Source of the DNA: a virus
Reading direction: 5' to 3' (one strand)
Length of the DNA stretch: 29,888 nt
IMG/VR virus record: IMGVR_UViG_3300022707_002514
Coordinates: 1 to 29,888 of that record
Shown here in pieces: positions 2,693-17,692 of the stretch (position 1 is the first letter of the stretch; every line of letters begins with the position of its first letter). The position numbers and the translations under genes are program-made. The notes beneath the pieces are model-generated. The model searched no databases and was not told where the DNA came from. It saw only the letters and a program-made list of their open reading frames with translations.

Positions 2693-3133
2693 TTTGTTAC
2701 GATTCCAAGCATACCAGCCACCTGCTCTAACAGCCCAGTAAGCCATCCAGCGTTTTTTATTACCCACTCCATCATCTTTCATAAGGCGACAAAATAATCT
2801 ATCAGCATTTTTGCGAGTCCATATATTTTTAGAATTTACCCAGCCATTAATATCTGTATCCCATTCTTTATACGATCCGGGCGGCATATCTCCTTTATGA
2901 TCATAAATATAATCATGCCAGAAAGGTGGGGTCCATTTGAAACTGCTGGGAGTAAATCCGGTTATAGCCCTTGCTAACCAAGGAACTGAGGCAAGATCAA
3001 ACTCAAAACCTGCCTTTGCATTAAGTTGTTGTTTTAAGTTTTCGGCCTCCCATTCCGTAGAGAAGTCCTCTAATAGAACAAAAATACCGTCTTTAGTAGG
3101 ATGAGGCTCTATGCGTGGTTGATTTAATGTCAT
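2681..3133 (-). CDS. DUF1353 family phage protein
   Basis: A 150-residue protein with the DUF1353 hallmarks: FDLASVP at about residues 45-51, followed by PPFWHDYIYDHKG at 69-81 with the conserved His-Asp pair, then an ADRLF...MKDDGV helix and an aromatic C-terminus. DUF1353 proteins are common next to lysis and tail genes of proteobacterial phages. Their biochemical role is not established, although the conserved His/Asp have been taken to hint at a metal-dependent enzyme. The start at 3133 is chosen because it forms an ATGA overlap with the stop of the upstream lipoprotein gene. An upstream in-frame ATG would add only five residues. It is the last gene of the leftward operon. Confidence 0.75.
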   Translation of the reverse strand: MTLNQPRIEPHPTKDGIFVLLEDFSTEWEAENLKQQLNAKAGFEFDLASVPWLARAITGFTPSSFKWTPPFWHDYIYDHKGDMPPGSYKEWDTDINGWVNSKNIWTRKNADRLFCRLMKDDGVGNKKRWMAYWAVRAGGWYAWNRNKSGK

Positions 3134-3375
3134 TCCGCATGACCACAAAATTTACGATATTGTTTATATTTCGTAGGATTGTCGCCATATCTGCGTTCTA
3201 ATGAGCCTATGGTAGGCCATTGGCATGTTTGCCTTACATTTGTATCAAGGACCTTGTCGGCTATCTTCTCTGCTCCTATGCGCTTAACTGTGCCTACTCC
3301 CTTCATAGCTTGTATGGGTGTAATACAACCTGATAATAGTAATGTGCAAAAAATGCACATTGTTAAATTTCTCAT
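3130..3375 (-). CDS. Small lipoprotein, possible outer-membrane spanin
   Basis: An 81-residue protein with a lipoprotein signal: short basic start, hydrophobic core, then the lipobox LSGC with Cys at residue 17. The mature part carries two more cysteines and several Arg/Tyr (RQTCQWPTIGSLERRYGD). It lies between a muramidase gene and a DUF1353 gene, joined to both by 4-nt ATGA overlaps, with AGGTAGG upstream. A small lipoprotein beside an endolysin is typical of an Rz1-like outer-membrane spanin subunit. It is not proline-rich like classical Rz1, and a matching inner-membrane spanin is not obvious, so the role is inferred. Confidence 0.55.
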   Translation of the reverse strand: MRNLTMCIFCTLLLSGCITPIQAMKGVGTVKRIGAEKIADKVLDTNVRQTCQWPTIGSLERRYGDNPTKYKQYRKFCGHAE

Positions 3376-3929: not shown

Positions 3930-4244
3930 TCAGGGAACATCTACCTTCTTAATAAAATCTACAGGTTCGGCACCTATACGGCTTTTTATATCGCCCTCTT
4001 CTGCAATAGCACGATCTGCTTTTAAATTGTTCATTTCTTCTTCTGTGACCCGCCATGATCCGGTAGAGTATGTTTTACCATCTACGCTAATATGTGGGAC
4101 AGGTGATATGTTTTCTCCCGTTTCCAGTTTATATGCTACACGAACTTTTGCATCATCATCAACCAGCCATGTGAAATGTGTGCTTTCTGCATAAACAGTT
4201 GCAGAAAGAATGCAGAAAGCTATAGTTAAGATAAATGTTTTCAT
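3930..4244 (-). CDS. Exported hypothetical protein
   Basis: A 104-residue protein with a clear cleavable signal peptide (MKTFILTIAFCILSATVYA, cut before ES). The mature 85 residues look like a small beta-rich domain followed by an acidic helix (VTEEEMNNLKADRAIAEEGD). No family is recognised. Its ATG overlaps the stop of the upstream exported gene (TAATG), so the two are translationally coupled. It is the last member of a run of six adjacent genes that all carry export signals. Confidence 0.6.
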   Translation of the reverse strand: MKTFILTIAFCILSATVYAESTHFTWLVDDDAKVRVAYKLETGENISPVPHISVDGKTYSTGSWRVTEEEMNNLKADRAIAEEGDIKSRIGAEPVDFIKKVDVP

Positions 4245-5347
4245 TAATACCTGCCTGCTTCATGTCTTAATTTTATATGTGCATTCATAGCCGTTACTAT
4301 TGTATCAGTTAAGAAAGTACCTACACCAAAGTAAATACCATAAATTATACCCCCGCTTACCATAGGACTGCTAGCAATGGCTTGTGCACCCCAATGCGCC
4401 TGTGCTGAAGCTTTTGTTGAACTTGTGGCAGTATTGGCATCCGTATCAGTAGTCCCTGTGTCTTCATTGAGGAAGAAAATAATATCATCTGTGCCACCAG
4501 CGTCTAACGGATCAAATGAAATCCACATTAAATAATCTGTGCTTGCATCCATAGTTGATACAGTAAAATCATTATCAGTAAGGGAGCTACCTCTAACTAC
4601 ACTAACTCTTATTGTTGTGCTATTAACAAAGAATATCCGTATACTTTCCGGCGTAAATGACCCTGATATAAACAATACTTGAGCGGTGGTTACATCCCCT
4701 AACCTAAAAGCCAGGCCGAACCAAGTTGGGCCAGAGTCAGTACCACTCGTCATATGCATGGCTTTTACTTTTTCGGGATCAGGGGTTAGATAGGTGAAGA
4801 AGTCCCCACCGTCCATATCAAAGCGACCAGTATCCCCTCCGACAGTTCCTCCGAAATTCGGGTCAGTGGTATCAGCAGTTCCATCACCGCCTTTCATTAA
4901 ATCATATACAGTGCCTGAAGATACAAGGTTCAACCATTCCTGTGATTGAACAGTTTCAGAACCATCAAGATCATCTTCAGTAACAAACGTCTCTGTGATT
5001 ACAATTTCATTAGCAGTTACGCTTGCAAGGGTATAGTTGTCATTATAATTAGTAGTCCCTGCAATTGTTACTAGTTGACCAGATATAAAATTATGACCTG
5101 TAAACGGAAGCCCAACCTCACCACCGCCCTTATCAACAGCAACACCAGAGTCTAGAGTACCTTGAAAATATGAATCCGCTATTGTTGCGTCAACGTCCTG
5201 AACGCAGGAAGGTTCAATAGTATCAAGAGACTCTTGTCCTGTTACTCCGCTAGAAGCAAAATGCGAAACAGGAAAAGTAAACTGTGCATATACCGGTAGC
5301 GATATAGTCAGAGATAGCAATAATATAGCTAAAAATTTTCTTATCAT
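4244..5347 (-). CDS. Exported virion-like protein, possible concanavalin/LamG-like fold
   Basis: A 367-residue protein with a signal peptide (MIRKFLAILLLSLTISLPVYA, cleaved before QFT). The mature part begins with two small beta-rich segments (about residues 45-110, including the pattern G-H-x-F-x-x-G-Q-x-V-x-I-x-G-T). A long Gly/Thr/Asp-rich region follows (about 130-367) in which segments such as LAFRLGDV, RIFFVNSTTIRVSVVRG and DYLMWISFDP fit a jelly-roll concanavalin-like domain of the kind found in phage appendages. It overlaps its neighbours at both ends (ATGA upstream, TAATG downstream). Fold and role are inferred. Confidence 0.5.
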   Translation of the reverse strand: MIRKFLAILLLSLTISLPVYAQFTFPVSHFASSGVTGQESLDTIEPSCVQDVDATIADSYFQGTLDSGVAVDKGGGEVGLPFTGHNFISGQLVTIAGTTNYNDNYTLASVTANEIVITETFVTEDDLDGSETVQSQEWLNLVSSGTVYDLMKGGDGTADTTDPNFGGTVGGDTGRFDMDGGDFFTYLTPDPEKVKAMHMTSGTDSGPTWFGLAFRLGDVTTAQVLFISGSFTPESIRIFFVNSTTIRVSVVRGSSLTDNDFTVSTMDASTDYLMWISFDPLDAGGTDDIIFFLNEDTGTTDTDANTATSSTKASAQAHWGAQAIASSPMVSGGIIYGIYFGVGTFLTDTIVTAMNAHIKLRHEAGRY

Positions 5348-6990
5348 TTAAAATCAGCCTGAAAAACACAATTCATATTAGTGCCGTTTGAGACACAAGT
5401 TAATATATCTGTAGAGCTGGCGGCTGTGGTTAGAGTTGGCGCTGTGCCACCGGGGAACTTGAAAACAGTTCCATATGTTAAAAGCTGGCTTCCAGTACCA
5501 TCCTGTATCAGATTTATAATATACGTAGATCCATCAACCTGATTCGTAGGATTATCAAGGACAAGATCACCATCAAGTGTAAGGCTCGTTACCTGATTAG
5601 AATTTAAATTCCATGAAACATTTGCCAGTTTTACGATTACATCATCTATATCACCATCAAAATCAAGATCACCGCGTATATCAAGATCAGTTCCGGCAGA
5701 AAGTATGTTTTCAATAAATGTACCGTTCGCGGCTCTGTCTGTTCCCTCTGTGCCTCCTGCTACAGGCGTTACATTACCCGCAACATAGTTCGTTACTGTA
5801 AAAGTAACTTCATAGGTGTTACCTGATACAAGAACAAGTGTGTCTTCAGTCAGATCACTATCGGCAGATTGTGTAGCATCTGAATTAGCAACACCAGATC
5901 CAATAGTCCAGCCAGTTCCTTTTGTCCAATTGGTATCACTAGCAAATGTACCATTAGTAACAAGATCAGCTCCGAGAGGAGTTAATGTTGTAGCGTTAAA
6001 ATTCTGCTGAGCCGTATATTCCTGCGCAACATCTGTAAGAGCATTGTTGGCATCAAATGCCTGAACATCTACCCCTATAGCGAGCCCTAATGAAGTTCTG
6101 GCAGTAGCCCCGCTCTCGTTTGCATAGGTACCGGCCCCGGTACCCACTATAATTTCGTTATCTGCAATGACTGATAAAGCTGAGAGATCGTCTAAAACTG
6201 CATCAAAAGCCTGTACATCCGTTCCTATAGCAACGCCCATAGAGGTCCTTGCGGTTGCACCGCTCTCATTTGCGTATGTTCCTGCGCCAGTGCCTACTAT
6301 GAATTCATTGTCAGCTATTACAGACAGAGCGGATAAATCATCTAATACCGCGTCAAATGCTTGAACATCTGTACCAATTGCAAGACCTAAAGAAGTTCTG
6401 GCTGTTGCACCGCTTTCATGTGCATATGTACCCGCGCCCGTTCCCACAATTATTTCGTTATCGGCAACGGCAGAAAGAGCGGCAAGATCATCAAGAACCA
6501 CATCAAAGGCTTGAACTGTGACTCCTATATCGGCATCTACAAGAACATTTGCAGTAGCGACACAGTTAGACCCGGCTGCATCGCAGAAGTTAGAGGCGTC
6601 TACATCACCATCAATCTTTACTGTGCCACCATCCGTTATAATATCTACATCAGTAATATCAGCACTGCCGAAATCACAATCTACTGCCCCGGTACAATCA
6701 TAACCAGAGCCAGCAAAGAATGTCCCTGTAGCTGTAGGATTTCCGCTTGCTGCTACGTAGGTAAAGTCAGTATCAACATCAATGTTACCGGAATTGTTAT
6801 AACAAACTCCTGTTGCAACATCTAGCGTCATAGATATATAACTAGGAATATCACTAGCACCAATATCAAGAGGTATTCTCATTTCTGTGGTAGTTGCGGA
6901 AGCATCTGTAGAGTCCCAGAAAGCTGTTTGAGCATACGCATTAGAACTAATCAGCAAGCATGTAAATAATATAAATAGTAAATTTTTCAT
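5344..6990 (-). CDS. Exported tail-fibre-like protein with 50-residue repeats
   Basis: A 548-residue protein. The start at 6990 gives a TAATG overlap with the upstream gene and exposes a signal peptide (MKNLLFILFTCLLISSNAYA, cut before QTA). An upstream in-frame ATG would bury this signal and is rejected. Residues about 160-313 hold three near-identical 50-residue repeats containing TDVQAFDAVLDDLSAL, VGTGAGTYA and ESGATARTS, a repeat type common in phage tail fibres. A carbohydrate-binding-like stretch follows (GDLVTNGTF-like, about 345-430). The final 70 residues (INLIQDGTGSQLLTYGTVFK, then WPGG-like FPGGTAPTLT) match a C-terminal domain widespread in phage fibres and spikes. Fibres normally assemble in the cytoplasm, so the signal peptide is unexpected. 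Confidence 0.7.
   Translation of the reverse strand: MKNLLFILFTCLLISSNAYAQTAFWDSTDASATTTEMRIPLDIGASDIPSYISMTLDVATGVCYNNSGNIDVDTDFTYVAASGNPTATGTFFAGSGYDCTGAVDCDFGSADITDVDIITDGGTVKIDGDVDASNFCDAAGSNCVATANVLVDADIGVTVQAFDVVLDDLAALSAVADNEIIVGTGAGTYAHESGATARTSLGLAIGTDVQAFDAVLDDLSALSVIADNEFIVGTGAGTYANESGATARTSMGVAIGTDVQAFDAVLDDLSALSVIADNEIIVGTGAGTYANESGATARTSLGLAIGVDVQAFDANNALTDVAQEYTAQQNFNATTLTPLGADLVTNGTFASDTNWTKGTGWTIGSGVANSDATQSADSDLTEDTLVLVSGNTYEVTFTVTNYVAGNVTPVAGGTEGTDRAANGTFIENILSAGTDLDIRGDLDFDGDIDDVIVKLANVSWNLNSNQVTSLTLDGDLVLDNPTNQVDGSTYIINLIQDGTGSQLLTYGTVFKFPGGTAPTLTTAASSTDILTCVSNGTNMNCVFQADFK
6051..6510 (-). repeat. 150-bp tandem repeat within the fibre-like gene
   Basis: The sequence around [c/g][a/g]TCAAA[a/t]GC recurs at 6051, 6201, 6351 and 6501, exactly 150 bp apart, with the intervening sequence conserved at protein level but diverged at many third positions. 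It encodes the 50-residue fibre repeat. The third-base divergence means the copies are old and maintained by selection on the protein. Confidence 0.85.
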
Positions 6991-7196
6991 TAACTTCCGC
7001 TCCATTGTGCGTTTGTTCCATCGCTCCATGTTGACTGTGTGCCATCGCTCCATGTTGCTAAAGTACCATTAGTGAAAGCAGCAACCCCATGTACAGCACT
7101 ATTGAAAATTCCTATCCCCGGACCGATACCGGCTTCAGAAGAATCAGAAGTAATCAAAAACATTGCAACCAGTAATATAATTGCTGATTTTTTCAT
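6990..7196 (-). CDS. Small exported protein with Trp-Ser-Asp-Gly repeats
   Basis: A 68-residue protein starting at 7196, where the ATG overlaps the upstream stop (TAATG). A signal peptide (MKKSAIILLVAMFLITSDSSEA) precedes a Gly-rich stretch (GIGPGIGIF). The C-terminus carries three copies of an 8-residue unit, GT-x-x-x-W-S-[D/G], encoded by near-perfect 24-bp repeats around 7000-7065. Repeated Trp-Ser-Asp-Gly units would suit a surface- or sugar-contacting tail. No family is recognised. Confidence 0.55.
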   Translation of the reverse strand: MKKSAIILLVAMFLITSDSSEAGIGPGIGIFNSAVHGVAAFTNGTLATWSDGTQSTWSDGTNAQWSGS

Positions 7197-7525
7197 TATC
7201 TGCCACATACAACGGTTGCTGTAGTTCCGGTAGCTAAAATCTGAGTCATTATTACAGGTATTAACTGCCCTACTATTACGGTGATTGTTACATTCGCAAC
7301 GCTTTTGATAGGATTAATAGCCAGATCCCCGGCAACTTCTACGATACAACCCCTCAAAGGTGGGTCATATACAGTTACATCTGAAGCGGTAATCTGAATA
7401 AGATCTTCAAAAGGTGCATATGCATCCAATGTACGTTTAGCGTCTTTTCCTTGAGCGGCCTGAGCCTGACAAGCTGAAAGAGAAATCATAGCAACTACAG
7501 CAAGCATTGAAAATAATTTTATCAT
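7196..7525 (-). CDS. Spike-base-like phage protein with a lipoprotein signal
   Basis: A 109-residue protein whose mature part resembles the spike base protein family known from Rhodobacter gene-transfer-agent-like particles and many phages: an ITASD start, a RGCIVEVAGDLAI segment (residues 58-70) where the family has R-A-L-Y-V-G-x-x-G-D-x-x-V, then a LIPVIMTQILATGTTAT segment near the end, where the family has LP-x-x-V-x-x-V-x-x-TGTTA. Unusually it begins with a signal sequence and a lipobox, LSAC with Cys19, followed by Gln at +2 (outer-membrane sorting in Gram-negative bacteria). A type I cut after AQA is possible instead. It is translationally coupled to the next exported gene, and a hairpin overlaps its SD. 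Confidence 0.6.
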   Translation of the reverse strand: MIKLFSMLAVVAMISLSACQAQAAQGKDAKRTLDAYAPFEDLIQITASDVTVYDPPLRGCIVEVAGDLAINPIKSVANVTITVIVGQLIPVIMTQILATGTTATVVCGR

Positions 7526-7528
7526 AAG

Positions 7529-7575
7529 AAAAACCCTTTCGTTTTATCCATTAAGGATAGTCGGAAAGGGTTTTT
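7529..7575 (-). terminator. Hairpin between two exported genes: attenuator/terminator
   Basis: AAAAACCCTTTC at 7529-7540 pairs perfectly with GAAAGGGTTTTT at 7564-7575 (12 bp). The 23-nt interior contains a second small stem, TATCC/GGATA (7545-7549 with 7555-7559). The U-rich flank makes it a bidirectional-looking intrinsic terminator just after the 298-residue gene. The leftward arm also carries the AAGGG that would be the SD of the spike-base gene starting at 7525, so it may regulate translation of that gene. Confidence 0.65.
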
Positions 7576-7595
7576 AAATCAATAGTGGGCTATTC

Positions 7596-8492
7596 TTAGG
7601 TTCCTAAGAATGTCCAGTGAATTGTAATAGTAGCGGTTGCATCAAGCGTAGCTACTGTATTGTTCCATGTGCCAGCCATGTTTAAATTGAGTACGTGACT
7701 ACCGCCAGACTCGAACAATAGCGGAGCTCCTGCTGTCATGATCGTGCTTTTCTCAGTTGCCGGGCTGGATATATCTGCAATGGTCTGACCTGTTAGCCAG
7801 TCTTCCATAGCGGCAGTTGTGAGGGTTGCAATATCACCTGAAGCAATCAATGAGCCTAAGCCGAAATCAACTGCATTAGTAGCAGAGTCGGCGGTAACTG
7901 CTGTAAGGTCAGCATGTATAGCCGTTCCTACATAAACACCGGCAGGGAAAGTATAGATAATTGCTCCGGCTCCTTCTGCATCAGCAGGGATTGTAGGGGT
8001 AAGAGCGGCAGCGGTAACAGTCAAAACCGTAACGTGATTGTAACCATCTCCATATTCAACCGCTGTAACACCTGTTCCGGCAGTTCCCACATTTGCATCT
8101 GTTCTTAATGCCTTAGCGGTATCCAGTATAGCTGCAACACTAGCGGCTGTATTAGCCTCAAGCGATCCATCAAGTAAGCCTAACTCAGCAACCGTAACCC
8201 CATCAGCTTCCAGATTTCCTAAAAATGTAGCATCAGCAGCGGGTATTAAGCTATTAGTACTGCCATCATTAATATCATCAAGAGTGTCAGTAGTAAGACT
8301 GAAGAAGCTATCTGTGATATTATTCGTGTCTGTAAAGTTAGTCTCGACTTCAAAATTGTTATGCTTGTTATTAAGCAGATCGGTTTGAAGTGCCGCTCTA
8401 CTCTTTTCAACGGCATAAGCAGCATCGCTGAGAACAATAACCGCTACGATTATCGCTAATATCATTAGCGCTCTTGTCATGTAATCCTTCAT
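7596..8492 (-). CDS. Exported phage structural-type protein
   Basis: A 298-residue protein with a signal peptide (MTRALMILAIIVAVIVLSDA then AYA, cleaved before VEKS) after a short MKDY start. GAGG lies about 8 nt upstream of the ATG at 8492. The mature protein has AALQTDLLNN, then a coiled segment, and from about residue 145 a beta-rich region (EYGDGYNHVTVLTVT, FPAGVYVGTAIHADL, FGLGSLIASGDIATL, LLFESGGSHVLNLN) that resembles a structural protein found in many marine phage genomes. First gene of the exported cluster, directly behind a good promoter. Function in the virion is inferred from the resemblance only. Confidence 0.6.
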   Translation of the reverse strand: MKDYMTRALMILAIIVAVIVLSDAAYAVEKSRAALQTDLLNNKHNNFEVETNFTDTNNITDSFFSLTTDTLDDINDGSTNSLIPAADATFLGNLEADGVTVAELGLLDGSLEANTAASVAAILDTAKALRTDANVGTAGTGVTAVEYGDGYNHVTVLTVTAAALTPTIPADAEGAGAIIYTFPAGVYVGTAIHADLTAVTADSATNAVDFGLGSLIASGDIATLTTAAMEDWLTGQTIADISSPATEKSTIMTAGAPLLFESGGSHVLNLNMAGTWNNTVATLDATATITIHWTFLGT

Positions 8493-8532: not shown

Positions 8533-8561
8533 TATATAGACTTAAAGAATACGTGTTTCAA
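8533..8561 (-). promoter_or_regulatory. Sigma70-like promoter of the exported-protein operon
   Basis: On the minus strand TTGAAA (complement 8556-8561) and TATATA (complement 8533-8538) are spaced by 17 bp, about 40 bp before the first start codon of the exported cluster and just after the recT stop. No copy of the early palindrome is present here, so this unit is probably controlled differently from the recombination genes. Confidence 0.6.
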
Positions 8562-8570
8562 CCCGTAATA

Positions 8571-9602
8571 TCAAGACTGCTTGCATTCCGGGCAAGGTTC
8601 CTTGAATAACTCACCTGAGTCTATATCTACACCATCAACCACGCCCCGACCCTGACAATTAGGACATTCGGAAGCATCGGGAGAGGAATCAGTAGCAGTA
8701 TCCTGCTCTGATTCTGACACTTCCGGCTGTGCCTCCCCATCTCCCTGCTTTTCCTCATGGTCCAGAACTTTTTTATCATCTACTAATTCAGCTTCCTTAA
8801 TCGGAAGATCTTCTTTTTCCTCACGATGCTGCTTGATGATATTATCTATATTCGTTGCGGGTGTATCGGATGAGTCACGAGCTGGTTTGTGCTGCTGTCC
8901 CATCTCTGTTATTTCCTGTGGCGTATAAACACCGAGAAGTATTTCAGGTATAAATTTACGAGCGAACCATCTGGCGGCTTTGTAAGCAAGTTGCTGATCA
9001 GGATCAGATTCCCATAGAGAAGACATAGCCTTATCAACGTAATATGTTCCTTTGGTGCCTTTTTTAGCAATGTTCTTAGGCATTGTAACCTTGACTTCAC
9101 GATCCTCATCTTCTTTTTTAAGCTGATGATCTTCAAAATCATAATAATATAACCTTCCGTAGGCATAACATATCCGATCTTTGTCTTCACCTTCATATCT
9201 ATATTTGAGAGGCATAACCAAGCGGCGGCTATTGTTAATAACAGCGTTCACGAGTTGCCCGGTAAACCCTATTTTTGATCCTGATTTAGCTATGTATGTT
9301 CCTGCTCCTACATGATAGGGATTCATATTCCAGTCACGAGCCAGTAAAACCATAGCAAGACACTCGCCGGGGTTTCCATGTAAATGATCAGGCAGCATAG
9401 ACTTTGCCTTACACATTAACTGAGCGGTCTGAATATCCTGCTTCAATGTCTCCTGAGAGGGGATGATCTTACGACTTGAAAACTCTTCATCTGATAGAAG
9501 ATTACTTTCAGCGGCTAATGCTCGAAATTCCTCTTCTTCTTTTGTGAGGTTTTTAAGAGCTACGGCTTTGCTTGGCTCTTTCAAGCTTTGACTTCCTGAC
9601 AT
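8571..9602 (-). CDS. recT: RecT-family single-strand annealing protein with a zinc-finger tail
   Basis: A 343-residue protein. Residues about 60-245 match the RecT family: QLMCKAKSMLPDHLHGNPGE, then LARDWNMNPY, KIGFTGQLVNAVINN, and DPDQQLAYKAARWFARKFIP toward the end. RecT proteins bind and anneal single-stranded DNA made by a partner 5'-3' exonuclease, here encoded by the gene just upstream. After an acidic linker rich in Glu, Asp, Gln and Ser (about 250-310) the protein ends with CPNCQGRG ... CPEC, a treble of DnaJ-type cysteine motifs that could bind one zinc ion. That tail is not part of standard RecT. The start is fixed by AACTGGAAAGG ending 7 nt upstream. A promoter, operator and folded leader precede it. 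Confidence 0.85.
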   Translation of the reverse strand: MSGSQSLKEPSKAVALKNLTKEEEEFRALAAESNLLSDEEFSSRKIIPSQETLKQDIQTAQLMCKAKSMLPDHLHGNPGECLAMVLLARDWNMNPYHVGAGTYIAKSGSKIGFTGQLVNAVINNSRRLVMPLKYRYEGEDKDRICYAYGRLYYYDFEDHQLKKEDEDREVKVTMPKNIAKKGTKGTYYVDKAMSSLWESDPDQQLAYKAARWFARKFIPEILLGVYTPQEITEMGQQHKPARDSSDTPATNIDNIIKQHREEKEDLPIKEAELVDDKKVLDHEEKQGDGEAQPEVSESEQDTATDSSPDASECPNCQGRGVVDGVDIDSGELFKEPCPECKQS

Positions 9603-9609
9603 ATCTTTA

Positions 9610-9690
9610 CCTTTCCAGTTATAGGGTATCGGGGTATCTGTTTTTGTAACTCATTACACTTTTGCGAAGGAATAATGTGTTGATACCCCG
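9610..9690 (-). ncRNA. Structured 5' leader of recT
   Basis: In the transcript a 9-bp stem, CGGGGTATC with GATACCCCG (plus 9682-9690 and 9630-9638), encloses a second stem (9648-9656 with 9673-9681, one mismatch) and a loop containing TTCGC. Immediately downstream a second GATACCC copy (9624-9630) could compete for the same partner, giving two mutually exclusive folds. The leader ends in AACTGGAAAGG (9610-9620), the SD box. Looks like a cis-acting regulatory RNA. No known riboswitch class was recognised. Confidence 0.55.
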
Positions 9691-9697
9691 ATGATTA

Positions 9698-9729
9698 TCT
9701 ATACCTAATCCTATTGATAATGTCAATAG
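9698..9729 (-). promoter_or_regulatory. recT promoter overlapping palindromic operator
   Basis: Minus-strand TTGACA (complement 9721-9726), 17-bp spacer and TATAGA (complement 9698-9703) form a near-consensus sigma70 promoter. The -35 lies inside a 19-bp palindrome, CTATTGATAATGTCAATAG (9711-9729), with 7-bp arms. The palindrome abuts the stop codon of the upstream nuclease gene. A repressor bound here would block the -35 box. Confidence 0.75.
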
Positions 9730-10629
9730 TTAAACAAGATCATCCTCAAGGCGTTTTGAATACCAAGGCTCAAGATCGAGAGTTTTAGTACCTTGCGGAT
9801 ATCCGGGGAAATGGCCTTTATCAATACAATCAGCATAACGCTGTATATTCCTGCGAAAGATATACCGCCCCGCTTCCTTGGCTTCTGGTGATAACTGAAC
9901 CAGATTTGTAAGAAATGGTGCTTTCTTCTCTACCAGTGGGAAGGCGAATCCTCTTGGATCTTCCCCGAAAACTTCTTTATAACCGGCTGAATAGAAAGCA
10001 TCCTGAACATGATATGAAAAATCCTGTACCGATTTAACAAAACCTTGTTCTGAAGCATCTTTTGTACTCTTGAAATCTATCAGGAGTCCTTGTTTTCTGG
10101 CTGCTCTATCGAGTCGGCCCTTACATTCCACACCTGTCTCTTTGTCGGTCCAGACCATTGTAACTTCATTATCGGCTTCAATTTCCAATAGTGCGCGGGT
10201 TTCTGGGTTAGCAAGTAGAGCATCGAGCATATCTATAAGCTGGTCTTTCCATACTAAAGGACATAGAATTTCTCTTTCTCCCATAGCAGCATCAGCCTCT
10301 TGAAATCCTTTGCTAGTGGTTGTTTTATGGTCTTTCCACCAATGAACCCGCTTATTAAATTCTTCAGGCTCTAATATTGCCAGATGAAAGGCCTGCCCGA
10401 ATCTTAAAGGATCAGTAAATTTACGCTCTGCATCAGGTGCAAGATATTCATAATAGAAATTTGCTGGCGTTTTTTCCGAAACAGGATTCGGATTGAAATA
10501 CTTTAACCATGACTGGCTAAGTTGCTTCATTTCCAGATAGTAGGTTTCTGCCTCTACTCCGGCGAAATATCCGGTCTGTCCTTGAAATGGGCAGTCTTGC
10601 GCCGCCGGCGCTTTTGCTGCTTGAATCAT
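9730..10629 (-). CDS. RecE-like PD-(D/E)XK exonuclease
   Basis: A 299-residue nuclease of the RecE C-terminal / DUF3799 type. The visible core is FGQAFHLAILEP (about 78-89, with the conserved His), a GRLD motif at 171-174, IDFKSTKDA at 184-192 (the E/D-X-K half) and YHVQDAFYSAGY at 206-217, which is the family's Q-x-x-x-Y helix. It should degrade double-stranded DNA from ends to leave 3' single strands for RecT, whose gene follows. The start at 10629 is preferred over an upstream ATG at 10695 because AACAGGAAAGG ends 6 nt before it and because the longer form would overlap the previous stop and two leader hairpins. Confidence 0.8.
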   Translation of the reverse strand: MIQAAKAPAAQDCPFQGQTGYFAGVEAETYYLEMKQLSQSWLKYFNPNPVSEKTPANFYYEYLAPDAERKFTDPLRFGQAFHLAILEPEEFNKRVHWWKDHKTTTSKGFQEADAAMGEREILCPLVWKDQLIDMLDALLANPETRALLEIEADNEVTMVWTDKETGVECKGRLDRAARKQGLLIDFKSTKDASEQGFVKSVQDFSYHVQDAFYSAGYKEVFGEDPRGFAFPLVEKKAPFLTNLVQLSPEAKEAGRYIFRRNIQRYADCIDKGHFPGYPQGTKTLDLEPWYSKRLEDDLV

Positions 10630-10635
10630 TGTATG

Positions 10636-10679
10636 CCTTTCCTGTTTTAATTCCACATTGGAACCGCTACGAATAACGG
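10636..10679 (-). promoter_or_regulatory. Twin hairpins and SD box before the exonuclease gene
   Basis: In the 62-nt spacer after the previous gene the transcript can form CCGTTA-TTCG-TAGCGG (10664-10679, a UUCG-type tetraloop stem) and then TTCCA-atg-TGGAA (10651-10663). These are followed by AACAGGAAAGG (10636-10646), a one-base variant of the recurrent SD box. No promoter or palindrome is seen here, so this leader sits inside an operon. Confidence 0.55.
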
Positions 10680-10691
10680 CTCTGTCTGGAA

Positions 10692-11150
10692 TCAATAATC
10701 ATCCTCATCATCGTGCGGATAATCAACGTGGGTAATTGATTTAACGACACGCTCTTTGATAAGTTTCTCAACTTGTTTGGCTATATTTTCCTGAAAACCT
10801 TTGTCAAGCATTGCTTTCATAATAGACTTCTCTAGTATTTCAGTTTTATTCTTCATGATGTCAAGAATTTCTACACGAACGCTATGGGAGTTGCTATCAA
10901 CCATTTTTTGTATAGCTTCGTCAGTACCGTATGTTGCTTTAACTCTTTTTTCAATTTCGCCCGATAACCCCTTCACAACAGCATGGCTCATGTAGTCTTT
11001 TATCATTTGAACCGCAATATTGTTAATCTCGGAGGTGTTTTTCAACCTGTCAGAAATTATTTTCTGCAAAACGTCTGTTCTAGTTGAGTTGCTTATCAGG
11101 GCATTAAGATCAATATCAATCGTTACTATATTTTTATTTTCTTCGCTCAT
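10692..11150 (-). CDS. Hypothetical protein of the recombination operon
   Basis: A 152-residue, mostly alpha-helical, charged protein without a recognised domain. The N-terminus (TIDIDLNALI) is followed by long amphipathic helices and the C-terminus is very acidic (YPHDDEDDY). It is encoded between the coiled-coil protein and the RecE-like nuclease, with its own promoter, operator and leader, and AACTGGAAAGG ends 6 nt before its ATG. An accessory role in phage recombination or replication is suggested only by this placement. Confidence 0.6.
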   Translation of the reverse strand: MSEENKNIVTIDIDLNALISNSTRTDVLQKIISDRLKNTSEINNIAVQMIKDYMSHAVVKGLSGEIEKRVKATYGTDEAIQKMVDSNSHSVRVEILDIMKNKTEILEKSIMKAMLDKGFQENIAKQVEKLIKERVVKSITHVDYPHDDEDDY

Positions 11151-11156
11151 AATCTA

Positions 11157-11265
11157 CCTTTCCAGTTTTAAATTAACGAGCCTTTTGTTTGAGTACCGTA
11201 AGGCCCTGCCGGTAATTATTCTCAGAGTTGGAATTATATAATCCGATTATACTGACAATGTCAAT
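11157..11265 (-). promoter_or_regulatory. Promoter, operator and leader of the 152-residue gene
   Basis: Minus-strand TTGACA (complement 11259-11264) with TTATAT 17 bp away (complement 11236-11241) or TATATA at 18 bp. The -35 lies in a palindromic operator, ATTGACATTGTCAGT when read leftward (11251-11265), which overlaps the last codons of the upstream gene. The leader can form TACCG/CGGTA and a weaker AATTA/TAATT closing stem and ends in AACTGGAAAGG (11157-11167). Confidence 0.6.
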
Positions 11266-12370
11266 AGGTAATTGTAACGCCCTGTATGTCTGATCTAGCG
11301 ATAGACTCAACAACCGCCTGAGCCTGCACATCTCCTAATTTACATTCCCGAATCAGGGCATCTTTAGCATTATTGTTAATCTTTGCCCGGTGCTTTTTAT
11401 TAGCCTCCCGCTTCTCAGCAGCTTCTTTTTCTTTCAGTTTTTTAGCAGACTGCCTATCTTTTTCAGCCTGTACAGCATCCTTTTTATCCTGATCGGCTTT
11501 CTTCTCAGCAGCGATTCGGTCAGTTTCCGCTTTTTTGACTTTGTCCTTTTCCTCCTGCTTCTCACGTTCCAGACGATCAGACTTTTCTTTTTCAGCAGCG
11601 AGTTTATCAGAGGCTATTTTTTGCTGTGATTCGCGTTCTTCCTTGGCTTTCTTTTCTGCATCTGCCGTAGCTTTATCAGCGGCATCTTTAGCGATCCGGT
11701 CCTGTTCATCTTTCTTTTCCTGAGCGGCCTGTTTTTCTCGAAGCTTTGCAAGCTCAGCTTTATCGGCTTCGTACTGCAATTCTTGTTCTAGCTTTTTATC
11801 TAAAGATGTTTTTGTTCGACCATAGATATGCTCAGCACGAGTTACATATTTTTCCTGTTCTTCATCTGAAAACTCTTTAGAAAAATGAAGGTTTTTGTAC
11901 AGAAGATCAAGGCGAGTTATTCGATGTTTAATGTTTTCAGAATTAATTTCTCCTATATCTTCATCAGAGAAATCAACGACCTCTGAAAGAATTTCTATAG
12001 CCCTATCAGCATCAGCCTTGCGCTGCTTCTCAGCTTCCTCATATTCAGTAAGCGGATCACGTATATCATCCTGAAGCTTTTGCAGGAAATTTACGCCCCT
12101 ATCTCTCTCAGCATTAGATTCCTGAACAGAGGCCCTCATTTTTTCCGTATATTTAGTGCCGATTTTTTGAAGAGTGGATTTAGTAGATCCTACCTTAGCG
12201 GCTATAGATCTTATATTGTCCCGGTCCTTCTGTGTTTCCACGCCATTGAGAATTACAGACCTTGCTTTTTCATCTACCTCTTTAAGAACAGGGTCGAGTC
12301 CGTTTGGTTTGAATAGTTCAACAGGGTTTAATTCTTCCAGCACTATCAATTGATTCGCAGTATTAGACAT
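11261..12370 (-). CDS. TolA-like coiled-coil phage protein
   Basis: A 369-residue protein of a type common in phage recombination operons and often labelled TolA-like. The N-terminal domain (about 1-125) has the pattern ...FKPNGLDPVLKEVDEKAR..., IRSIAAKVGSTKSTL and DIRDPLTEYEEAEK. The centre (about 195-320) is an uninterrupted Lys/Glu/Ala-rich coiled coil. The C-terminus has KDALIRECKLGDVQAQAVV then IARSDIQGVTITY, where relatives have an A-L-x-x-x-G-L-x-x-x-x-A-x-x-V-V-x-A-I pattern ending in V-x-I-x-Y. Despite the TolA label nothing indicates a membrane role: no TM segment is present. The family's role is unknown; it usually accompanies single-strand annealing proteins. AACTGGAAAGG ends 8 nt before the ATG. 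Confidence 0.65.
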   Translation of the reverse strand: MSNTANQLIVLEELNPVELFKPNGLDPVLKEVDEKARSVILNGVETQKDRDNIRSIAAKVGSTKSTLQKIGTKYTEKMRASVQESNAERDRGVNFLQKLQDDIRDPLTEYEEAEKQRKADADRAIEILSEVVDFSDEDIGEINSENIKHRITRLDLLYKNLHFSKEFSDEEQEKYVTRAEHIYGRTKTSLDKKLEQELQYEADKAELAKLREKQAAQEKKDEQDRIAKDAADKATADAEKKAKEERESQQKIASDKLAAEKEKSDRLEREKQEEKDKVKKAETDRIAAEKKADQDKKDAVQAEKDRQSAKKLKEKEAAEKREANKKHRAKINNNAKDALIRECKLGDVQAQAVVESIARSDIQGVTITY

Positions 12371-12416
12371 ATCACTTACCTTTCCAGTTTATGAAGCTTA
12401 TGAAACTTATGTAGGT
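12371..12416 (-). promoter_or_regulatory. Short leader with direct repeats and SD box
   Basis: The spacer before the coiled-coil gene contains three imperfect 9-bp direct repeats on the plus strand (TTATGAAGC, TTATGAAAC, TTATGTAGG, about 12389-12415). In the transcript AGTTT can pair with AAACT of the AACTGGAAAGG box (12379-12389), partly occluding it. No promoter is visible, so it is read from the unit starting near 12.67 kb. Confidence 0.4.
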
Positions 12417-12632
12417 TTATCCTGTACGAGTGAAAATGCACAGAAAACAAGTTATAATTTCCTGTTTCTTCTCATTAAAAAACATCTGATGTCCTACAGG
12501 AGATGGAGCCCAGCCCATGATAATATTATTATGAAACTCCTTTTCAAATTCTTCCTTGTCCTGAGTTTGCAATATTTTTATCTTAGGCTTAGGGCCTAAA
12601 TTCATGACTTGATTCGATGGCTGTCCATTCAT
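12417..12632 (-). CDS. Small DUF1737-like protein
   Basis: A 71-residue protein. The start at 12632 follows GAGG by 8 nt; a longer frame would run through the promoter region and is rejected. The segment KILQTQDKEEFEKEFHNNII followed by MGWAPSPVGHQMF resembles the short DUF1737 pattern (a strand, a helix with E-E-x-E-K-E, then GW-x-P-x-G). Function is unknown. First gene of the leftward recombination operon, just behind its strongest promoter. Confidence 0.5.
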   Translation of the reverse strand: MNGQPSNQVMNLGPKPKIKILQTQDKEEFEKEFHNNIIMGWAPSPVGHQMFFNEKKQEIITCFLCIFTRTG

Positions 12633-12660
12633 AGTTATTTCCTCATTTGAGTTTTTGTCG

Positions 12661-12701
12661 TTGACTTTTCGGATTATATTGATAATATCAGCAATGTCAA
12701 T
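12661..12701. promoter_or_regulatory. Divergent early promoters with overlapping operators
   Basis: Leftward: TTGACA (complement 12695-12700), 16-bp spacer, TATAAT (complement 12673-12678), feeding the DUF1737-like gene. Rightward: TTGACT (12661-12666), 16-bp spacer, TAATAT (12683-12688), feeding the gene at 12732. The region holds one palindromic site (ATTGATAATATCAGC, 12678-12692) and further half sites (TGTCAAT at 12695-12701 and a following TATCAAT). It is the hinge between the left and right early operons, comparable in layout to a phage control region but without a repressor gene beside it. Confidence 0.65.
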
Positions 12702-12731
12702 ATCAATGTGAATAAATATTAAGGACAGAAA

Positions 12732-12923
12732 ATGGCTCAAGAGACTAATGATAAAAATCCTCAAGCATGGCTTTACCTGTATGAGATAAAGAAAGTCCTA
12801 TGTGATTTTACTAAGAGCGATCCGCGTTTTAACAATATCTCAGAAGCAGCCCGGCATCTGATTCCTGTGGGAATTGAGGCCGATAAAGAAGCTCGGGAAA
12901 AAGCTATAAAAGAAATATCATGA
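12732..12923 (+). CDS. Hypothetical early protein
   Basis: A 63-residue helical, charged protein of unknown family (MAQETNDKNPQAWLYLYEIK at the start, EADKEAREKAIKEIS at the end). AAGGA lies about 8 nt before the ATG. It is the first rightward gene after the divergent promoter region and is followed by the gapR leader, so it probably belongs to the earliest rightward transcript. Confidence 0.55.
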   Translation: MAQETNDKNPQAWLYLYEIKKVLCDFTKSDPRFNNISEAARHLIPVGIEADKEAREKAIKEIS

Positions 12924-12950
12924 ATACCTGAATCATAGTATCTTGTGAAT

Positions 12951-13010
12951 GTGCCACGCAAGACTCTGTGACCGGGGAAACCTGTAGATGATCTGGCACA
13001 ACTGGAAAGG
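12951..13010 (+). promoter_or_regulatory. Leader hairpin and SD box of gapR
   Basis: GTGCCA (12951-12956) pairs with TGGCAC (12994-12999), closing a 37-nt loop that may itself fold. The closing stem ends exactly where AACTGGAAAGG (13000-13010) begins, 7 nt before the gapR ATG. No palindromic operator or clear promoter was found in the 94-bp spacer. Confidence 0.45.
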
Positions 13011-13017
13011 TAAGACC

Positions 13018-13326
13018 ATGACTGAAGAAACTCCCGGCATAGGCCACAATAGCAAATCAGCTACCGACTCTGATGTCGGCACCAAAGATACAGGCGGCGT
13101 ATCTGGTAAGCGCCTGATATCATTTATTGAGCGAATCGAGCGACTCGATGAAGAAAAAGATAACCTCATGGAAGATATTCGGGAGGTTTACGGCGAAGCC
13201 AAAGCCACCGGATTCGATGTCAAAACCATGAGAAAGATAGTAAAGCTCCGTAAAATGGACACAGAAAAGCGCAGCGAAGAAGACGATCTTCTTAATGTCT
13301 ATAAAGAAGCTGTGGGGATTTCCTAA
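13018..13326 (+). CDS. gapR: GapR-like nucleoid protein (DUF2312)
   Basis: A 102-residue protein. After a variable GIGHNS-containing start it matches the DUF2312/GapR domain along residues about 30-100: LISFIERIERLDEEKDNLME then DIREVYGEAKATGFDVKTMR, then KIVKLRKMD and an acidic C-terminal helix. GapR is an alphaproteobacterial coiled-coil protein that clamps AT-rich or overtwisted DNA ahead of replication and transcription and supports topoisomerase action. A phage copy could help replicate or transcribe the AT-rich phage genome or compete with the host protein. The ATG at 13018 is chosen because of the AACTGGAAAGG box; an earlier in-frame ATG lies within the leader hairpin. It is followed by the promoter of the methyltransferase gene. 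Confidence 0.85.
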   Translation: MTEETPGIGHNSKSATDSDVGTKDTGGVSGKRLISFIERIERLDEEKDNLMEDIREVYGEAKATGFDVKTMRKIVKLRKMDTEKRSEEDDLLNVYKEAVGIS

Positions 13327-13330
13327 ACAC

Positions 13331-13359
13331 TATTGACAATGTCAATGTACTTCTATAAA
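13331..13359 (+). promoter_or_regulatory. Promoter and palindromic operator
   Basis: A perfect copy of the palindrome, ATTGACAATGTCAAT (13332-13346), contains TTGACA (13333-13338). TATAAA at 13354-13359 gives a 15-bp spacing, slightly short. It drives the methyltransferase gene through a leader of about 80 nt. Confidence 0.65.
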
Positions 13360-13371
13360 TTGAATTATCAG

Positions 13372-13437
13372 GGATGAGGCGAACAGTCATAGCGCCTTTG
13401 CAGGGGTCGCCTTGTCATCCTTGATAAACTGGAAAGG
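13372..13437 (+). promoter_or_regulatory. Structured leader and SD box of the methyltransferase gene
   Basis: GGATGA-GGCGA (13372-13382) pairs with TCGCC-ttg-TCATCC (13407-13420), an 11-bp stem with a 3-nt bulge. An alternative stem, AGGCG (13377-13381) with CGCCT (13393-13397), uses the same bases and would exclude it. AACTGGAAAGG follows at 13427-13437, 7 nt before the ATG. Confidence 0.5.
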
Positions 13438-13444
13438 TGAGAAT

Positions 13445-13969
13445 ATGGGTAAGAGAAGCCCCGGATTTAAGAGAAGAAAGCATGATAAATATGATACGCC
13501 ATATGAGGCGGTCCCTGCTCTTATTCCCCATTTAGCGCCCGTGTCTTCTTTCTGTGAGCCCTGCGCTGGCAAGGGATTGTTAATAGATCATCTGCAAGAT
13601 ATGGATATTCGATGTATATCTGCTTTTGATATAAAGCCTCGGCGGGATGATATAAAAAAATTAAACGCTCTGAAAGATTTTAAAAAATGGCAAATTCATG
13701 GAGCCGATTACATCATTACTAACCCTCCGTGGACCCGGCAATTACTACACCCTATGATTGATATATTCAGGAACATTACAACCACATGGCTATTATTTGA
13801 CGCAGACTGGATGCATACGAAACAAGCAAAGCCATATCTTGAATACTGCTCTCTGGTTGTTAGCGTGGGACGCATTTCATGGATGGGAAACGGTGTATCA
13901 GGTAAAGATAATTGTGCATGGTACCGATTCGGACTCGATAAATCAGAAACAATTTTTAAGGGTAGATAA
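13445..13969 (+). CDS. DNA (adenine-N6 type) methyltransferase-like protein
   Basis: A 174-residue class I SAM-dependent methyltransferase-like protein. FCEPCAGKG (residues 36-44) is the SAM-binding motif I, AFDIKP (60-65) motif II, and NPPW (93-96) in DYIITNPPWTRQL the catalytic motif IV of enzymes that methylate exocyclic amino groups of adenine or cytosine. No target-recognition domain is evident, consistent with small phage enzymes. It may modify phage DNA against host restriction, or act on host DNA. The ATG at 13445 is set by the AACTGGAAAGG box. An earlier ATG in the leader is rejected. The HTH-like gene follows after 1 nt. Confidence 0.75.
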   Translation: MGKRSPGFKRRKHDKYDTPYEAVPALIPHLAPVSSFCEPCAGKGLLIDHLQDMDIRCISAFDIKPRRDDIKKLNALKDFKKWQIHGADYIITNPPWTRQLLHPMIDIFRNITTTWLLFDADWMHTKQAKPYLEYCSLVVSVGRISWMGNGVSGKDNCAWYRFGLDKSETIFKGR

Positions 13970-13970
13970 A

Positions 13971-14339
13971 ATGGCAGAAGCACAAAAAATAATTACGCCG
14001 GATTTAATTGATATGGATTGCTTTAGGGATCTTTTAGAGGGAAGCGTTTACTCAGATAAAGGCGCAGCTAAAGTAATGAAGATTGATGCGAGAACTATTA
14101 AGAACTGGTGTAGGGAAGAGAATCCCTCTTTCCCGAACAAAAGTAATATAGAAAAGGCGCTGAAATTTATGACAAATTTAAGAAATCCTAAAAATAAACG
14201 GATTAAAAAACATCCTTCTTATGGATATGTCACACAAGAACAATGGGATAAATTAAAAAGTCTAGGCATAGGGCCTGACAGAGATGTTCTGTTGAAACAG
14301 ATTGATGCTCAGAATAAATCGAAAGGTAAGACAAAATGA
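13971..14339 (+). CDS. Hypothetical protein with a helix-turn-helix-like segment
   Basis: A 122-residue basic protein. Residues about 26-48 (YSDKGAAKVMKIDARTIKNW) look like a helix-turn-helix in which a short helix containing GAAKV is followed by a recognition helix beginning DARTIKNW. A similar pattern occurs in phage regulators that recognise operators. The second half is Lys-rich. It could be a candidate binder of the recurrent palindrome, but nothing beyond the motif supports that. It begins one base after the methyltransferase stop and overlaps the next gene by ATGA. Confidence 0.5.
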   Translation: MAEAQKIITPDLIDMDCFRDLLEGSVYSDKGAAKVMKIDARTIKNWCREENPSFPNKSNIEKALKFMTNLRNPKNKRIKKHPSYGYVTQEQWDKLKSLGIGPDRDVLLKQIDAQNKSKGKTK

Positions 14340-14599
14340 TGGTAAGCAGGGAAACTACAGATGATGAGGATGAGGCAATAGCTACGGTTATTAAGCTGGC
14401 TCGTGAAATTCCTAATGTCCATATGCAGATAAGAAAGGCTATAACTCTCTGCATGAAATCTGACTATGGAAGTATAGACGAGAATCTAATAACCTCCGCT
14501 CTTCCGGCAGCTATAGAGGCATTAAGAAAAAACAATGAAATAAGTATAGCGGCGCATTTAGAAACATTGGTTAAGCAGCTACACAGTTGTGATTATTAA
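14336..14599 (+). CDS. Hypothetical early protein
   Basis: An 87-residue acidic, helical protein with no recognised domain. Its ATG overlaps the upstream stop (ATGA) and GAAAGG, a relative of the recurrent SD box, lies about 9 nt upstream. The N-terminus is very acidic (TTDDEDEAIATV) and two cysteines occur near residues 42 and 85. It belongs to a run of short early genes between the methyltransferase and the recombinase. Confidence 0.55.
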   Translation: MMVSRETTDDEDEAIATVIKLAREIPNVHMQIRKAITLCMKSDYGSIDENLITSALPAAIEALRKNNEISIAAHLETLVKQLHSCDY

Positions 14600-14608
14600 G
14601 GAAAAACT

Positions 14609-14860
14609 ATGGGGCAGGGAAACATAATACAGATACCAACGGAAAAAATGTCCGTGACAAAATCAACAGATCGATTAATAAAAGAAATCAGCCAAATAAT
14701 TGATGAGGAAAATATGGACGCTACCATTGCTTTCATCACCATAATTACTATGGGATTCGCTGTTTTGCATAGTGGTACAAATCTTAGTCAAGAGCTTGCT
14801 GTAGCATCTGCCGCTGAGCTTGCGAAGACAGTTTATTCAGGGGAGGGTCTGGAAGAATGA
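14609..14860 (+). CDS. Hypothetical early protein
   Basis: An 83-residue protein of unknown family with a helical, moderately hydrophobic centre (AFITIITMGFAVL, about residues 41-53) that is too short and polar-flanked to call a membrane span with confidence. AAGGAAAA precedes the ATG. The stop overlaps the next gene's start (ATGA). Confidence 0.5.
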   Translation: MGQGNIIQIPTEKMSVTKSTDRLIKEISQIIDEENMDATIAFITIITMGFAVLHSGTNLSQELAVASAAELAKTVYSGEGLEE

Positions 14861-15480
14861 CTTGTACAGAAGATAGGTTTTTATTTGATGTTGAAAAGCA
14901 TGAAATGGAAATATTACGTGATGATGGTATATACAGGCATATAAAATTTAAAATGCCGCATTCATTCTGCTGTGCGTTTGAATTGATCACGTGGCCCGGT
15001 TATCTATGTATATGCGGAGATATGGGAACTTATACATTTAGCCGTATCAACGATATGTTTGATTTCTTCACGATTAAAAAGTCAAGATGGAATAAAGATC
15101 AGAAGATAAGAATCAATACCGGATATTGGGCTGAGAAACTACAGTCTCAGAATTGTCATGGCGTTAGCACAGATGGCCCTAAAAATTATTCTGAGGAAAA
15201 ATTTAAAGAAACCATCAGGCGCGTTTATAATGATTTCATAAATGATTATGAAATGCCAGATGATGAAAAAACAGTATTATGGCAGAGATTAGAAGATGAA
15301 GTATTGAGCGCTTATAGCGAAGAGCAAGCTCGCCAGTACGCATCGGACTTTACGCATGAAAATTTTGATTTGTGCGATTTTTGGGAATACGATCTTCAAG
15401 AATACACCCATCATTTCATATGGATTTTATACGCTATATCATGGGGAATAGAAAAATATAAAACTGGAAAAGGAAATTAA
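14857..15480 (+). CDS. Conserved phage protein of unknown function
   Basis: A 207-residue protein of a type seen in many proteobacterial phages: a start with a VEKHEMEILRDDGIYRHIKF-like segment (residues 12-31), then FELITWPGYLCICGDMGTY then TFSRINDMFDFF (about 41-71), and a long helical C-terminal half ending in a Trp-rich HHFIWILYAISWGIE region. No enzymatic motif was recognised. It is coupled by ATGA to the gene before and separated by 4 nt from the zinc-ribbon gene after, an arrangement that often recurs with this family. Confidence 0.65.
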   Translation: MTCTEDRFLFDVEKHEMEILRDDGIYRHIKFKMPHSFCCAFELITWPGYLCICGDMGTYTFSRINDMFDFFTIKKSRWNKDQKIRINTGYWAEKLQSQNCHGVSTDGPKNYSEEKFKETIRRVYNDFINDYEMPDDEKTVLWQRLEDEVLSAYSEEQARQYASDFTHENFDLCDFWEYDLQEYTHHFIWILYAISWGIEKYKTGKGN

Positions 15481-15484
15481 AATC

Positions 15485-15955
15485 ATGGCAGAAGATCTAT
15501 TTGAGGCATCAGCTCTAGCCAGCGCAAAGGCCGATGTAATGCACGAAGCGAAGAAAAAGGGCTGTCATTGCCCGGTATGTGGGCAGTTCGTTAAGGTGTA
15601 TCGGAGGACTATTAATAAATCGTCTGCTGTATTGCTGGCAAGAGCCTGTAGAAAATTCGGGGAGGATATATCATTCCATATAACGGACCTGATAGAAGGC
15701 GGCGGGGGTGATTTCGCTAAGCTCAGATATTGGGGACTCATAGAGCAGATTGAAAATAACAACGATAAAAAGAAGCACTCCGGCAAATGGAGATTGACTA
15801 AGTTGGGTGTATATTTTGTAAAACATGGTCAAACTCTTCCTAAATATGCGCTGATTTATGATGGTAAATTACTTGATTTTGATGGTGATGAGTTGATAAC
15901 AATTCAAGATGCGCTAGGAAAAGACTTTGATTATCAGGAGCTTATGGCGGCATAG
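15485..15955 (+). CDS. Conserved phage protein with zinc-knuckle motif and winged-helix look
   Basis: A 156-residue protein. CHCPVCGQFVKVYRR (residues 27-41) is a short Cys motif, and the centre (SSAVLLARACRKF ... GGDFAKLRYWGLIEQ ... GKWRLTKLGVYFVKHG, about 46-118) looks like a winged-helix domain. The C-terminus (KYALIYDGKLLDFDGDELIT then IQDALGKDFDYQELM) is conserved in related phage proteins. Only two clear metal-site cysteines are adjacent, so a second pair may come from a partner or be lost. A DNA-binding role is possible but unproven. A variant SD box, ACTGGAAAAGG, lies about 12 nt upstream, inside the end of the previous gene. Confidence 0.6.
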   Translation: MAEDLFEASALASAKADVMHEAKKKGCHCPVCGQFVKVYRRTINKSSAVLLARACRKFGEDISFHITDLIEGGGGDFAKLRYWGLIEQIENNNDKKKHSGKWRLTKLGVYFVKHGQTLPKYALIYDGKLLDFDGDELITIQDALGKDFDYQELMAA

Positions 15956-15972
15956 ATAGAAAAGGTAAGGCA

Positions 15973-16350
15973 ATGACGTATAGTATGCATACTGAAAATA
16001 TGATGAAAAATATAGAGATCTACCAAAAAGCTCAAGAGAAGCTGAAAACCATCGTTAAAAAAGTAGCCTTAGAAGGTGGCAAAACTCAATACTGCTCTAT
16101 TGTTAAAATATCTGATGATTTCTTTTTGTGGGCTAATCTGTACAGGTGTAAAAACGATCTGTTATACATATCCCTATATAGAAATGATAAAGATGATAAG
16201 AAACCAAAGAGGGTAGCCCGGAGGATTAAATATGAAGATTTTATTCGGGCTTTCCCTGAATTCGGGCGTAGAGATATATGGCGTGTAGGTTGGAATGAGG
16301 CAGGAAAAAGATACACAGAATTGGAAGAAAAACGATCAATAGAAACATAG
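15973..16350 (+). CDS. Hypothetical protein
   Basis: A 125-residue basic protein without a recognised family. It starts with a helical segment and then has a beta-rich part (YCSIVKISDDFFLWANLYRC, then LLYISLYRN) followed by basic residues (KKPKRVARRIKYED). AAAAGGTAAGG immediately before the ATG is a relative of the recurrent SD box. It is the last gene before the recombinase unit. Confidence 0.5.
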   Translation: MTYSMHTENMMKNIEIYQKAQEKLKTIVKKVALEGGKTQYCSIVKISDDFFLWANLYRCKNDLLYISLYRNDKDDKKPKRVARRIKYEDFIRAFPEFGRRDIWRVGWNEAGKRYTELEEKRSIET

Positions 16351-16494
16351 TCATTTTATAACATACTAAGTTATTGAAAACATTAATAAATATGTTCTTA
16401 TAATTTCTTTGGTTCATAATTGTAGTTCTTGACCATGACCCTAAAATAAGGCAATATAAGAAACTTATGGACCGCGTAAGCTATTGGAATCATC
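16351..16494 (+). promoter_or_regulatory. Non-coding spacer with promoter and imperfect inverted repeat
   Basis: This AT-rich spacer holds TTGACC (16429-16434) and CAATAT (16452-16457) with 17-bp spacing, a plausible promoter for the serine recombinase. It also contains TTATAACATA (16356-16365) facing TATGTTCTTATAA (16391-16403), an imperfect inverted repeat that could be a recombinase site. The early palindrome is absent. Confidence 0.4.
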
Positions 16495-17584: not shown

Positions 17585-17585
17585 C

Positions 17586-17614: not shown

Positions 17615-17623
17615 TATTTATTA

Positions 17624-17672: not shown

Positions 17673-17692
17673 ATTTAACCTAGTGAGAGGAC

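Follow-up and report, generated by a model that had tools for sequence, protein, structure and literature searches.

Head-spike-type proteins with export signals in a six-gene cassette of a tailed phage

Tailed phages are taken to assemble their virion proteins in the cytoplasm. For virion binding proteins, lack of a signal peptide has been taken to favour a phage origin (PMC6199706). Among the closest described counterparts of the locus presented here is the head spike of RcGTA. There the base protein Rcc01079 sits on the capsid vertices as a pentamer, attached through its N-terminal arms, and its pockets take up residues 2-10 (IALGLGLGL) of the fibre Rcc01080 in the shape of a five-point star (PMC7296036). 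These spikes attach to the capsule of the host cell (PMC7296036, PMC10218006), and a polysaccharide-binding role is established for them. Related gene pairs occur in RcapNL (gp29-30), P8625 (gp23-24) and Pben1 (p62-63), where the base gene overlaps a directly following fibre gene with a star peptide; the fibre genes of these phages lack signal peptides. RcGTA also carries the tailspike TspA, which is bound to the baseplate but detachable and can act on biofilm off the particle (PMC13420450). The Ig-like capsid cement proteins of GP4 and KHP40 (PMC9698820) are a further point of comparison.

The window analysed here is the whole 29,888-bp virus record IMGVR_UViG_3300022707_002514, a fragment. 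Its plus strand encodes small and large terminases, a Mu-type portal, a Mu-like protease and a major head protein, and the presence of these genes on the same record rules out host contamination. An intein-like insert with a LAGLIDADG homing-endonuclease domain (PF14528) splits the 834-aa large terminase (22352-24856, plus strand) behind its Walker A-like PPQHGK. The first-pass annotation had placed six adjacent virion-like genes at 3930-8492, and all six were found there, contiguous and on the minus strand. This cassette, read from 8492 down to 3930, follows genes for a DUF3799 nuclease and RecT, so that it lies opposite in strand to the capsid genes and adjoins recombination genes. The annotation had also described all but the first pair as translationally coupled, and beyond the first gap all four junctions are indeed overlaps of TAATG or ATGA. 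In that gap, between P0001 and P0002, lies a strong attenuator- or terminator-like hairpin with a T-run (7529-7575, minus strand, z -4.4), which is kept in a relative, IMGVR_UViG_3300022707_002252 (hereafter L006; z -3.4). The 3' arm of the hairpin contains the Shine-Dalgarno-like sequence of P0002, and the structure could let more P0001 be produced than spike-gene products. Ahead of P0001 is a promoter-like site, TTGATA-17-TATTCT (8546-8574, minus strand), with a counterpart in L006, TTGATA-17-TATGAT (7917-7945), at an equal distance from P0001; promoter scans returned consensus matches only at chance level, and it is solely the shared position that singles this site out. A perfect sigma-70 consensus, TTGACA-16-TATAAT (12/12), lies at 12673-12700 on the minus strand and heads leftward genes that run toward recT and then the cassette. 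Just beyond the cassette, in a lysis-like region, the minus strand encodes an 81-aa lipoprotein with an LSGC lipobox (3130-3375), which by size only may be o-spanin-like or exclusion-like.

Each of the six cassette products begins with a Sec-type signal peptide, in which a positively charged n-region leads into a hydrophobic core that ends at a cleavage site of AxA type, with predicted cuts at AYA|V in P0001, AQA|A in P0002, SEA|G in P0003, AYA|Q in P0004, VYA|Q in P0005 and VYA|E in P0006. Signals were called with a home-made heuristic, not SignalP, and under this heuristic the secretion signals claimed for all six products were recovered in the window (6/6) and again in L006 (6/6). Within the window they were confined to seven of the 44 genes, namely the six of the cassette and the 81-aa lipoprotein, and control rates were 1/60 in phage C72C1, 0/28 in MEP301, 0/16 in a Cr30 region and 1.6% in shuffled N-termini. 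For P0002 a lipobox (LSA|C) had been an alternative reading; the signal itself stands, whereas the lipobox is absent from L006 and from a further phage with a signal-bearing spike base (L018). P0002 is therefore probably a normal signal peptidase I substrate, as judged from these homologues, and its assignment as a lipoprotein was dropped.

A search for the same gene order with signals in another phage was answered by L006, in which the six genes occur in the same order and all bear signals. Between the window and L006 the signals of P0001 to P0006 are identical at 8/26, 5/18, 10/21, 7/20, 5/21 and 3/19 positions (16-48%), and the mature parts at 74, 64, 61, 28, 39 and 43%. The low value for P0004 arises because its mature N-terminal region of about 75 aa is similar in the two phages and everything beyond it has been replaced. 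By comparison, the phage's own fibre, a signal-less 616-aa protein encoded on the plus strand (104-1954), and its L006 counterpart share 81% identity. Judging from these alignments, the cassette signals are under selection as signals: they have diverged, look functional in L006 and precede mature parts that are mostly well conserved.

The spike-base pattern read in the first pass proved real. P0002 (109 aa, 7196-7525, minus strand) consists of a signal peptide and a head-spike base protein of the Rcc01079 family, scoring 47.4 bits against NCBIfam NF048002 (RCAP_Rcc01079; curated cut-off 28) and 47.2 bits on the DNA. A profile of three sequences matches PDB 6tb9 (Rcc01079) with an E of 1e-4, and P0002 also matches phrog_12296, 'tail fiber protein'. 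The records L006 and L018 each contain a single spike base, which is of the exported type. From the predicted mature start to a conserved ITPSD-type motif, the bases of the window, L006 and L018 measure 21 residues; in signal-less bases the arm before this motif measures 21 residues in RcapNL, Pben1 and Jannaschia and 20 in Rcc01079. None of the signal-less bases compared has a credible signal, the one heuristic call (P8625) falling within a core strand. One of these homologues lies on plasmid p1 of Jannaschia sp. CCS1 (L026, 2965-3222), beside polysaccharide-synthesis genes.

A matching register was found in P0003 (68 aa, 6990-7196, minus strand), a signal peptide followed by a 46-aa putative spike-fibre anchor that comprises a star peptide and then W-x-DGT repeats. 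The star peptide, GIGPGIGIF (7104-7130, minus strand), lies at the predicted mature N-terminus and corresponds to GIGSGLSIF in L006, the motif falling at mature residue 2 in both phages. In RcapNL (MGLGLGIGLGL), P8625 (MIGLGLDLSL) and Pben1 (MLIGLGIGIGF) it directly follows the Met of the gene 3' of the base. The motif occurs nine times in 70,839 residues from 14 sources, in seven proteins, five of which are encoded by the gene after a spike base. In the star peptides of the window and L006 only about three to four of the five alternate positions are aliphatic, and the L018 spike has no clear star peptide. Taken together, the star motif and the arm register make the signal look like a discrete prefix, without which the N-termini are the customary ones. 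Between the cleavage site and the motif, P0002 and P0003 of L006 have no in-frame ATG, GTG or TTG start, and hence there is no obvious cytoplasmic form of either protein there; a cytoplasmic form through dual start codons was considered, and none was convincing.

The exported bases differ from their signal-less homologues in a cysteine pair, C60 (7346-7348) and C107 (7205-7207) of P0002 (span 7205-7348, minus strand), which is kept in L006 and L018. No cysteine occupies either position in six signal-less spike bases, those of RcapNL, P8625 and Pben1 among them. The pair fits folding in an oxidising periplasm, although the contrast may go back to one event, given the relatedness of the three exported bases. 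Compared with the RcGTA head spike (Rcc01079 base and Rcc01080 fibre), the cassette agrees in base family, in a star-type peptide encoded downstream and in arm length, and it shares with RcapNL, P8625 and Pben1 the overlap of the base gene with the gene that follows. It differs from RcGTA in having signal peptides on all parts, the conserved cysteine pair, and a cement-like protein plus two further proteins; its anchor peptide and fibre are moreover separate genes, the fibre being encoded by the gene after P0003, so that star peptide and fibre are not one chain.

P0001 (298 aa, 7596-8492, minus strand) has a signal peptide (residues 1-27), a fibre-like stretch of about 100 aa and a C-terminal cement-like beta domain (residues ~137-298). 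The best VIA fold matches of this domain, obtained with a model of pLDDT 55, are the cement proteins of GP4 (Z 7.7) and KHP40 (Z 7.0); a capsid chain of Pam1 ranks sixth in the list (Z 6.4), and all three lie in the range of Z < 8, where matches can reflect no more than a common fold. The domain thus weakly resembles capsid cement proteins, which we treat as a lead from a weak model; the GP4 and KHP40 proteins themselves lack the exported N-terminal part of P0001. Signal-less relatives of P0001 adjoin the major capsid gene or have portal and protease genes on either side (L007/L012, L015), these neighbours being named by eye from position and sequence. P0001 of the window contains no cysteine, and oxidative folding therefore cannot account for the export of all six proteins.

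The fibre features noted in the first pass were both located in P0004 (548 aa, 5344-6990, minus strand), a signal peptide followed by a modular fibre. Its 50-residue repeats are present in three copies (6067-6516, minus strand) and match phrog_24210, tail fiber protein, and the FPGGTAPT fibre end lies in its C-terminal domain (5374-5625, minus strand). This fibre end reads LTCVSNGTNMNCVF; the corresponding stretch of signal-less homologues is LTFISDGTSMHGDS, ITFRSDGTNLYEQG or LVFLSNGTNLYEIG and lacks the C-x8-C pair of P0004, a pair that likewise fits folding in an oxidising periplasm. Past its signal peptide, P0005 (367 aa, 4244-5347, minus strand) is lectin-like by eye only, its structure model (pLDDT 33) being too poor to use, and P0006 (104 aa, 3930-4244, minus strand) is a signal peptide with a short protein. 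The fibre, LamG and 95-aa genes of L004 had been considered as signal-less versions of P0004 to P0006; profile comparison of P0005 and P0006 with the LamG and 95-aa genes gave no link, and only the connection through the P0004 C-terminal domain stands.

Signal-bearing proteins of comparable type recur in other phages. In L018, a signal-bearing spike base and then a 1336-aa signal-bearing spike directly follow endolysin and spanin-like genes; the spike has a hydrolase-type region (phrog_16653), Ig-like domains with cysteine pairs and weak matches to Hoc-like head-decoration proteins. L010 (IMGVR_UViG_3300031578_000083, 8542-10122) carries tandem cement-like paralogues straight after its major capsid gene, one a 316-aa protein with a signal and its neighbour without. 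An otherwise different phage, L012 (IMGVR_UViG_3300009128_000048, 10499-17838), has six successive signal-bearing genes in its structural region, encoding 409, 677, 395, 495, 297 and 163 aa, the 677-aa product with LamG domains (Pfam); the run lies after the capsid gene and a signal-less relative of P0001. The 409-aa fibre of L012 ends in a CNGSHC pair. Scans of cellular genome collections returned no relatives, the phage collection held no match for P0001, P0005 or the 316-aa protein of L010 and no isolate of such a type, and the open-access literature contained no report of signal-bearing head spikes.

Overall, the cassette is very probably an exported head-spike-type module. The first-pass view of virion-like genes with export signals holds, and its appendage is better placed on the head, since the homologies (spike base, spike-fibre anchor, cement-like protein) point to the head exterior more than to a tail appendage. 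Of the options then offered, addition of a piece to the virion at exit would best fit these homologies. We propose that a head-exterior module has been rerouted via Sec, with P0001 as cement-like protein, P0002 as base, P0003 as plug or anchor, P0004 as fibre and two accessory proteins. Each of the six would be secreted to the periplasm, where cutting by signal peptidase I would give N-termini that signal-less homologues have at the start codon, exposing the spike-base arm and the star peptide. Disulphides could form in this compartment, and the spike would assemble there, off the capsid. In the least certain step, holin and endolysin would let virions meet the periplasm at lysis, and the spike would then be fitted to the heads. 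Such fitting would explain why the cement-like protein and the base arm are retained, and why L006 and L018 each have a single spike base, of the exported kind. This full route, from maturation in the periplasm to fitting on virions at lysis, is advanced tentatively, at somewhat below an even chance.

Alternatively, the exported spike and fibre may act off the virion, released at lysis and binding or degrading host surface polysaccharide, blocking superinfection or preventing progeny from re-adsorbing to debris. Capsule binding by RcGTA head spikes (PMC7296036, PMC10218006) is in keeping with such activity, as are the hydrolase-type region and Ig-like domains of the exported L018 spike, the location of the L018 spike genes directly after lysis genes and the precedent of RcGTA TspA as a spike acting once off the particle (PMC13420450), although TspA is a baseplate protein with no sequence link shown to the cassette and the main text describing it names no signal peptide. 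A free role would explain the enzyme-like L018 spike, as well as the replacement of the binding half of P0004 between relatives whose own fibre is so well kept. Against it stand the retention of the star peptide and of the N-terminal arm (which binds the capsid in RcGTA), as well as the presence of a cement-like protein without an obvious job away from the capsid; furthermore, no outer-membrane export route is visible. The exported fibres also have nothing in common with the phage's own fibre, as P0004 and P0005 show no blastp similarity to the 616-aa protein in the window or in L006, which equally weakens the suggestion that the tail fibre was copied as a receptor decoy. The cassette may nonetheless provide an adhesin or a free polysaccharide-binding or -degrading product, and we regard action off the virion as a genuine possibility, if a doubtful one.

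Other readings account for less of the evidence. Secreted prophage proteins and exclusion lipoproteins of the T5 Llp / Ltp class exist, and the six genes might accordingly be a lysogenic-conversion cassette for a prophage-made surface adhesin or exclusion proteins. The products, however, are spike- and cement-like, the P0002 lipobox is absent from L006 and L018, and no integrase was recognised among the window genes tested, the sole recombinase of this fragment being a short, resolvase-type serine enzyme (16495-17172, plus strand; PF00239). An integrase gene may lie outside the fragment, but on balance lysogenic conversion is improbable. More improbable still are uncleaved anchors that hold capsid-decorating proteins at the inner membrane as a platform for assembly or lysis timing. 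The hydrophobic cores, that of P0001 for example, have the length needed to cross a membrane, but all window signals have AxA-type sites and the star motif lies one residue past the cut in two phages; with the signal left on, it could not plug into the base. Heuristic calls might reflect misassigned start codons or N-termini that are hydrophobic by chance; the shuffle rate of 1.6%, set against 12/12 genes in two diverged phages and recurrence elsewhere, led us to reject this explanation, which we consider exceedingly improbable.

Several phages bear export signals on head-spike-type proteins, with a docking peptide at the very point that signal peptidase cleavage would lay bare. This would mean either a periplasmic assembly step in tailed phages or the conversion of spike modules into secreted weapons or shields, and both readings yield a search rule, namely spike or cement homologues with signals. 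To our knowledge, a two-compartment assembly route is not known for tailed phages. That some tailed phages make part of the virion exterior in the periplasm, with cement and spike parts secreted, cut, oxidised and snapped onto capsids only at lysis, is on present evidence rather unlikely. More broadly, our reading of the cassette is that certain phages may complete some of their coat in the periplasm or employ head-exterior parts away from the virion.
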